Part shown: piece after piece, positions 52,307 to 53,770 of the stretch
Numbering within the stretch: position 1 is the first letter of the stretch
How the letters are laid out: each line of letters starts with the position of its first letter
From: Herbaspirillum sp.
GTDB taxonomy: Bacteria; Pseudomonadota; Gammaproteobacteria; Burkholderiales; Burkholderiaceae_D
Assembly: GCF_017744395.1 (NCBI RefSeq)
Contig: NZ_JAGIBI010000002.1
Coordinates: forward strand, 310,001 to 374,000
Direction of reading: 5' to 3'
DNA: 64,000 nucleotides
The notes under the pieces: model-generated
The model's input: the letters and a program-made list of their open reading frames with translations, nothing else
Databases searched by the model: none
Told to the model about the DNA's origin: nothing
Translations under genes and position numbers: made by a program

Positions 52307-53188
52307 ATGAGCACCAATCCCAACACCGACGACTTTTTCGCCACTGTCGCGACAAAATCCGACAGCGGCGCATTGCGCGGCGACTACAGCCAGGCTGACG
52401 CCAACTACGTGGTGGCGCAGAGCTGGAACAGCTATACCCCGGAGCAGCATGCCCGCTGGCGCCGCCTGTACGAACGCCAGGCCAGGCTGATCCCGGGCCG
52501 CGCCTGCGACGTCTTCATCGACAGCCTGAAGGCGCTCGACGTCGCGCAAGGCATCCCGCGTTTCGACCGCACCACCGAAGCCTTGTACAAGGCCACCGGC
52601 TGGCAGCTGGTGGCGGTGCCCGGCCTGGTGCCGGACCAGACCTTCTTCGAGCACCTGGCCAACCGCCGCTTTCCGGTGACGGTCTGGCTGCGCGAAGAGC
52701 ATGAGTTCGACTACATCGTCGAACCCGATGTGTTCCACGACTTTTTCGGCCATGTGCCGCTGCTGTTCAACCCGATCTTCGCCGATCACCTGCAGGAATA
52801 CGGCAAGGGCGGCCTGAAGGCGCTCAAGCTGGACGGCCTTGCCTACCTGGCGCGCCTGTACTGGTACACCATCGAGTTTGGCCTGATCCAGAGCGAGCAG
52901 GGGCTACGCATCTACGGCGCCGGCATCCTGTCTTCGGGCGGCGAGGTCGAGTATTGCCTCTCCAGCGGCCAGCCGCGCCGCATCCCGTTCCAGGTCGAGC
53001 GCATCATGCGTACGCTGTACAAGATCGATTCGTACCAGGAAACCTATTTCGTGATCCGTGATTTCGAGCAACTGTTCCACGACACCGCGCCCGACTTCAC
53101 GCCGCTTTACGATCGGCTGAAAGCGCAGGAGGCGCTGCCGGCCGATACCTTGCTGGCGGGCGAGACCAACCTGCCGGCCAATCGCTGA
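52307..53188 (+). CDS. phhA: Phenylalanine 4-monooxygenase
   Basis: GWQLVAVPGLVPDQTFFEHLANRRFPVTVWLREEHEFDYIVEPDVFHDFFGHVPLL; YWYTIEFGLIQSEQGLRIYGAGILSSGGEVEYCL. Confidence 0.96.
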   Translation: MSTNPNTDDFFATVATKSDSGALRGDYSQADANYVVAQSWNSYTPEQHARWRRLYERQARLIPGRACDVFIDSLKALDVAQGIPRFDRTTEALYKATGWQLVAVPGLVPDQTFFEHLANRRFPVTVWLREEHEFDYIVEPDVFHDFFGHVPLLFNPIFADHLQEYGKGGLKALKLDGLAYLARLYWYTIEFGLIQSEQGLRIYGAGILSSGGEVEYCLSSGQPRRIPFQVERIMRTLYKIDSYQETYFVIRDFEQLFHDTAPDFTPLYDRLKAQEALPADTLLAGETNLPANR

Positions 53189-53196
53189 ACTTGTGC

Positions 53197-53241
53197 CATC
53201 CGCTACCACCGCCATCCCGGCTTTCGCCGGGGTGGCGGATG
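53197..53241. repeat. REP-like palindrome downstream of phhA
   Basis: CATCCGCTACCACCGCCATCCCGGCTTTCGCCGGGGTGGCGGATG: near-perfect stem of the CATCCCGGC...GCCGGG type. Confidence 0.6.
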
Positions 53242-53262: not shown

Positions 53263-53340
53263 TAAAAAAACGGATCTGACAGGGGAGGCCAGATCCGTTG
53301 AGCTAGTGGTGCTTTCAACACTAGAGGGGAGGAACCTTGC
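53263..53340 (-). ncRNA. Putative small RNA with two CCUCCCCU motifs and its own terminator
   Basis: Minus strand GCAAGGTTCCTCCCCTCTAGTGTTGAAAGCACCACTAGCTCAACGGATCTGGCCTCCCCTGTCAGATCCGTTTTTTTATT: two hairpins, second followed by U7; flanking genes are both on the plus strand; 5' end not defined. Confidence 0.6.
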
Positions 53341-53770
53341 ACAGAGAATGGATACCAATCAATCGCTGTTCAAGTGAGTCTTATTAAACGCCCGCCGCGC
53401 CGCCAGTCCAATTCCTTTTACCGGTTGTTACATTCGCGCTTCGCTTGTAACACCCCGCCTGTTTTTTGACAGCCGGAAATATTGTTGTTTGGCCCTTTCC
53501 GGCATTTTCTTCTTTGCAAACTCCTTCTTTCCGCAGGACTTGCGGAATTGTTTCCGGCTTGCCAAAAGAACGCCCAAAACCGCCGGAAGCCCTGCTGCGA
53601 CGCGCGTAGCGGGCCTCCCATCGTTGTGCTACCTTGATTTCATAAATAGAAATAAAACCAGCGCCCACAAGGCGCCGGCGTTTTGATTGCCAGCGCGGCC
53701 AGGCCCACACTAAGCCCGGCAGCACGGGCGCATGTGAAACCAAGAACACGATTTTTGGCACGGAGACCGC

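Follow-up and report, generated by a model that had tools for sequence, protein, structure and literature searches.

The interval between phhA and the gene for an indolepyruvate/2-oxoacid ferredoxin oxidoreductase (IOR) in Herbaspirillum sp. carries on its minus strand a predicted small RNA (sRNA) of ~113 nt, which we consider likely (probability of roughly 0.7) to act in trans. Transcribed from its own promoter, probably one under an activator, and ended by an intrinsic terminator, it would pair through an unpaired linker with the Shine-Dalgarno (SD) sequences of several mRNAs and block ribosomes. The minus-strand RNA is supported by comparative evidence on RNA-level structure, strand, conservation, and synteny; we infer the transcription start, the regulator, the anti-SD action, and the targets. 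The features are collected in Table 1, with positions referring to the window, that is, the whole 64,000-nucleotide stretch of DNA that was analyzed.

Table 1. Features of the predicted sRNA and of its neighboring genes in the window
Feature	Position	Strand	Basis or remark
Predicted full sRNA, ~113 nt, three hairpins	53264..53376	-	Fold and conservation, from -10 box to T-run
Stretch first described: linker, second hairpin, and terminator (3′ two thirds)	53263..53340	-	
5′ hairpin P1, CUUGAACAG...CUGUGCAAG	53336..53374	-	Absent from the earlier note
Linker CCUCCCCU, unpaired, nearly invariant anti-SD motif	53325..53332	-	
Hairpin P2, CUAGUG...CACUAG	53303..53324	-	Pairing in alignment
Terminator hairpin P3, loop CCUCCCC	53269..53299	-	Fold, terminator scan, covariation
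U7 tail of terminator	53264..53270	-	Sequence
Candidate -10 box TTTAAT (TGTAAT in sister genera)	53383..53388	-	Conservation
Direct repeat GTAAC-N5-GTAAA, candidate activator site, 5′ of -10 box	53417..53431	-	Conserved
phhA, phenylalanine 4-hydroxylase	52307..53188	+	PF00351, E=7e-46; convergent with sRNA
IOR, fused indolepyruvate/2-oxoacid ferredoxin oxidoreductase, 1206 aa	53771..57391	+	PF01558, PF02775, PF20169; divergent from sRNA

Folding of the 113-nt RNA (53376-53264) gave -35.0 kcal/mol and three hairpins, the first two separated by the unpaired CCUCCCCU. The 78-nt stretch folded at -25.3 kcal/mol (z = -4.4), and none of 200 shuffled sequences was equally stable. P3 was identified in a terminator scan as a 12-pair terminator stem with a T-run. 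The minus-strand sequence, the two hairpins, the U7 tail, and both copies of CCUCCCCU that the earlier note had placed here were all confirmed in the sequence, the fold, and the terminator scan. However, its 5′ boundary at 53340 proved too short and missed P1: relatives are conserved well 5′ of this position and the GCAAGG at the 5′ edge of the 53263-53340 stretch forms the 3′ arm of P1, so the predicted RNA start lies near 53376. Both strands of the 64 kb together contain two copies of CCTCCCCT, both at the sRNA locus, 44 bases apart and on one strand, compared to a chance expectation of 1.5 scattered copies.

A consensus scan upstream of the sRNA found no full promoter and no good -35 element, which points to an activator-dependent promoter. 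Between the -10 box and IOR, an inverted repeat TGTTACA...TGTAACA (53426-53452, minus strand) overlaps the GTAAC-N5-GTAAA repeat, and this element resembles in its letters a response-regulator direct-repeat site. Directly after phhA lies a GC-rich hairpin, GGCTTTCGCCGGGG (53208-53238). A similar CCCGGCATTCGCCGGG stretch flanks L006, a copy resembling the Rfam family RF02278, so the post-phhA hairpin may be a dispersed REP-like repeat.

Conservation of the stems was examined in alignments of the relatives. For P2 and P3 together, 98.2% of the alignment cells pair, as against 24-43% with slid partners, and in nine pairs both partners have changed. Eight of these nine belong to P3, which has 11 pairs in all and is by itself 98.6% paired. 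Support for P2 (97.4% of cells paired) is thinner, since a single pair has changed on both sides and several others have become G-U. RNAalifold recovered the terminator alone from the mixed full-length alignment; the other stems were missed because the 5′ hairpins differ in length, and P1 was therefore tested in the sister genera alone, where the equivalent stem is 97.7% paired in nine sequences and 6 of its 15 pairs have changed on both sides. The minus strand was chosen because the wobble cells read on it comprise 45 G-U and one A-C. This ratio also bears on the idea of a plus-strand RNA with GGGGAGG loops that bind CsrA/RsmA like CsrB-type sponges. GGA does occur in comparable loops on the plus strand, but there the structure-keeping G-U changes become A-C mismatches, and the terminator and the -10 box indicate the minus strand as well, which makes such a sponge scarcely credible. 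We also regard it as very unlikely that the interval holds a mere terminator and conserved IOR promoter DNA with no RNA regulator. Part of the conserved interval may indeed serve the divergent IOR promoter; however, there is no minus-strand gene in need of a terminator, and plain intergenic DNA would not be expected to show covariation in three hairpins together with an unpaired motif that hardly varies.

The linker CCUCC is kept in nearly all copies, with ACUCC in two metagenome copies and CCCUCC in one, and in those predicted folds that were examined the motif stays unpaired. Most relatives have a CU-rich terminator loop; in others it reads UUCCCC, GCU, CCUG, or something unrelated. Sister genera (Glaciimonas-type L139; L128-L137) carry a CCUCCCC-type stretch in the P1 loop, giving three CU motifs. 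Given that the linker motif is near-invariant and the loop copies vary, the linker is taken as the conserved working part, and the loop copies look like helpers, with the terminator-loop copy common but dispensable. Thus, of the duplicated motif in the earlier note, the linker copy holds across relatives, whereas in several of them the copy in the terminator loop varies or is lacking. The same split applies to the covariance and conservation analysis that the note had proposed, in which the stems and the 5′ motif are kept but the copy in the second loop is not strictly so. Conservation, compensatory changes, strand bias, and synteny together give good support to its central proposal, a free-standing sRNA with an exposed anti-SD motif.

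In order to follow the RNA beyond the window, BLAST searches were combined with a covariance model, R1, built from 15 sequences. Judged by its named relatives, the Herbaspirillum of the window stands close to H. chlorophenolicum and strain SJZ106. BLAST identified homologs in 20 of 34 Herbaspirillum genomes, and diverged syntenic copies were present in H. autotrophicum, Glaciimonas, and Oxalobacteraceae metagenome bins. At E <= 0.001, R1 matched 57 of 295 genomes of the family (Oxalobacteraceae) in six genera. All 30 top loci tested lie between phhA and IOR in constant orientation, as do 8 of 18 weaker loci. Less certain relatives in a genus of the family with small genomes (L148-L153) lie near IOR with phhA out of reach; they carry CCUCCUCU or CGUCUCC motifs, and GAUCAACCC replaces the CU-rich terminator loop. 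The sRNA is missing from several Herbaspirillum genomes, including close relatives at the same locus. R1 matches outside the family were chance-like terminators without the linker motif and were discarded, and the sRNA was not found at IOR genes of other families of the order. Additionally, Rfam gave no match at 13 phhA loci that do not have the sRNA. As far as searched, the sRNA is confined to Oxalobacteraceae. A second IOR-type gene in the same genome (C4:474357-477854, L214), 60% identical to the IOR of the window, has no such sRNA.

One alternative is an action in cis, either as an RNA antisense to the phhA transcript at its 3′ end or as an insulator of IOR from phhA read-through. The sRNA is convergent with phhA, no good plus-strand phhA terminator precedes it, and phhA and IOR are neighbors across much of Oxalobacteraceae. 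However, the probable relatives L148-L153 are not within reach of phhA, and a cis role would need neither the conserved linker motif nor the compensatory changes in the stems. Moreover, genomes without the RNA simply have the two genes closer together (mostly 127-285 bp apart, compared to mostly 395-690 bp with the RNA). We therefore consider cis action unlikely.

The earlier note had suggested a scan for a toxic betaproteobacterial sRNA family in Rfam. Rfam release 15 gave no gathering match at the sRNA locus, and RF02278 (gathering cut-off 50 bits) gave none even at E <= 10. The sole gathering match in the 64-kb window is an SAH riboswitch (RF01057, 42957-43050, plus strand, 45.4 bits, above its cut-off). 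Weak matches in the interval (BSnc120, SNORA43, CC0196, sX11, and sR17) were below gathering scores and were rejected, that to BSnc120 being the GC-rich hairpin outside the sRNA. RF02278 copies are present in every Herbaspirillum genome; in the genome of the window, four score above the cut-off and another two fall just short of it, and the phhA-IOR locus is not among the 20 places listed in the search of that genome. RF02278 had no match at IOR genes of the other families of the order among those scanned.

Members of RF02278 are the double-hairpin RNAs ncS03, ncS05, ncS27, and ncS62 of Burkholderia cenocepacia (PMC5688073), to which S17 of Bordetella pertussis is homologous (PMC11722255). Like the phhA-IOR sRNA, they are short RNAs with a CU-rich anti-SD stretch and two 3′ hairpins, the last of which is an intrinsic terminator. 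RF02278 RNAs occur in several copies per genome, and a longer precursor form is known for ncS27 and S17. The phhA-IOR sRNA differs by its additional 5′ hairpin, its stem sequences, and its fixed place between phhA and IOR. The second CU motif of RF02278 lies in the loop of the first hairpin; in the phhA-IOR sRNA only the 5′ stretch is present in that arrangement, as CCUCC is absent from the P2 loop and the second motif occupies the terminator loop instead. Because the model does not match and the second motif lies elsewhere, the sRNA was not filed under RF02278.

That the sRNA is nevertheless a diverged RF02278 paralog that moved into the phhA-IOR interval, and not a separate family, is quite possible, if short of an even chance. 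Both share the order of parts, namely a CU-rich unpaired stretch, a short hairpin, and a terminator, and when R1 was run on 462 kb, the best matches after the window and the syntenic L052 fell on RF02278-type copies in the same genome, aligned end to end. However, these matches were not themselves significant (E=0.06 for L008, 0.63 for L006/L007, which are overlapping loci with one place listed twice, and 0.76 for L004), the RF02278 model is silent at the locus, the hairpin sequences and the position of the second CU motif differ, and convergence is possible for short CU-rich hairpin RNAs. The comparison suggests a common design and possibly common descent, and the best reading is that of a separate variant of the anti-SD double-hairpin kind, acting in trans. 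L008 (C5:306709-306780, 3.2 kb outside the window) matches RF02278 weakly (32.9 bits), carries CUCCCCCUCC at the 5′ end and, as the best R1 match outside the syntenic family, is a possible intermediate form. L006/L007 (C8, ~103.4/~104.2 kb) are RF02278-like, slightly below the gathering score, and form a tandem pair ~750 bases apart on one strand.

CU-rich loops are also known from the alphaproteobacterial CcsR or "cuckoo" RNAs. The comparison with CcsR in the earlier note stands as an analogy, but there is no tandem cluster behind a DUF1127 gene here, the neighbors being phhA and IOR. CcsR1-4 form a tandem series downstream of ccaF1, a DUF1127 gene, and are released by cleavage of a shared precursor (PMC10253847). 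Compared by description, the phhA-IOR sRNA is single, has its own candidate -10 box, and has no such protein gene.

In H. seropedicae, 117 sRNAs have been cataloged (PMC7011215). Four of these are RF02278 RNAs (Hsnc059, 063, 086, and 107), which are expressed in the same genus and have a similar general design, although they lie at other loci. The phhA-linked RNA is not within the Rfam-matched set given there. Primer and probe sequences listed there for the Northern-tested Hsnc028, 042, 073, and 082 had no match to the locus, and Hsnc073 (~78 nt on Northern) was thereby rejected as a candidate. The sRNA may be an unnamed entry among the 117, whose positions are in the supplement of the article. 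Apart from that supplementary list, the literature searched contained no paper describing a phhA-linked sRNA, and the locus, judged from sequence comparisons, is real and conserved and apparently uncharacterized.

By analogy with the RF02278 RNAs, the sRNA probably switches off the translation of other messages through its unpaired anti-SD motif. Its transcription, probably dependent on an activator, would begin at its own promoter between phhA and IOR and stop at the intrinsic terminator. The unpaired CCUCCC(C/U) linker would then pair with strong purine-rich SD sequences of several mRNAs, helped by the CU-rich terminator loop in most relatives and by the CCUCCCC loop of the 5′ hairpin in sister genera. 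Such pairing would keep ribosomes from loading, an action already reported for double-hairpin RNAs of betaproteobacteria. For ncS27, 55-80% of the predicted interactions are at start regions, and its overexpression slows growth, with the opposite effect for an anti-CU construct (PMC5688073). S17 directly represses BP2158, and S17S showed no toxicity in E. coli in exponential growth (PMC11722255), so growth inhibition is not universal among RF02278-type RNAs. The position of the sRNA beside two genes of aromatic amino acid catabolism suggests that it is made when such catabolism is adjusted.

Targets were sought through duplex energies at the two neighboring start regions and through exact sites before ATG. 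The start regions of phhA (-7.4 kcal/mol) and IOR (-9.2 kcal/mol) were rejected as direct targets, as their pairing is no better than background (median -8.0 kcal/mol). Only 12 exact AGGGGAGG sites precede an ATG in the genome; these are few and mostly intragenic, and a broad regulon is therefore not evident. When exact AGGGGAGG or GGGAGGAA sites preceding an ATG were listed as targets, the list was likewise discarded, since most entries were intragenic or tiny frames; petB alone stood out. Within the main group carrying the RNA, 18 of 18 readable genomes keep the petB AGGGGAGG site through a GGG glycine codon of the upstream gene, compared to GGC in 8 of 9 genomes without the sRNA. Exceptions are G008, which has GGGG without the RNA, and G013 and G023, which have a diverged RNA and GGT. 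The association is confounded by descent, and shared descent or simply a better SD sequence could explain it. We regard as improbable the more specific proposal that the sRNA forms a distinct family of Oxalobacteraceae, masks petB (bc1 cytochrome b) at its ribosome-binding site, and so links aromatic amino acid catabolism to respiration, with coevolution of RNA and target. If the petB lead is true, the petB start region with AGGGGAGG would be repressed and the AGGCGAGG form would not.

Finally, the sRNA touches on a general puzzle of anti-SD sRNAs, namely how such an RNA, bearing the recognition sequence of the ribosome itself, selects particular messages. The phhA-IOR sRNA, which forms a second group at a place of its own and carries the CU motif on different hairpins, offers a natural comparison for the question of target choice. 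ncS27 of Burkholderia is reported to affect phenylalanine and tyrosine catabolism (reviewed in PMC10987360), and the phhA-IOR sRNA would set an RNA regulator beside phenylalanine breakdown in plant-associated bacteria.
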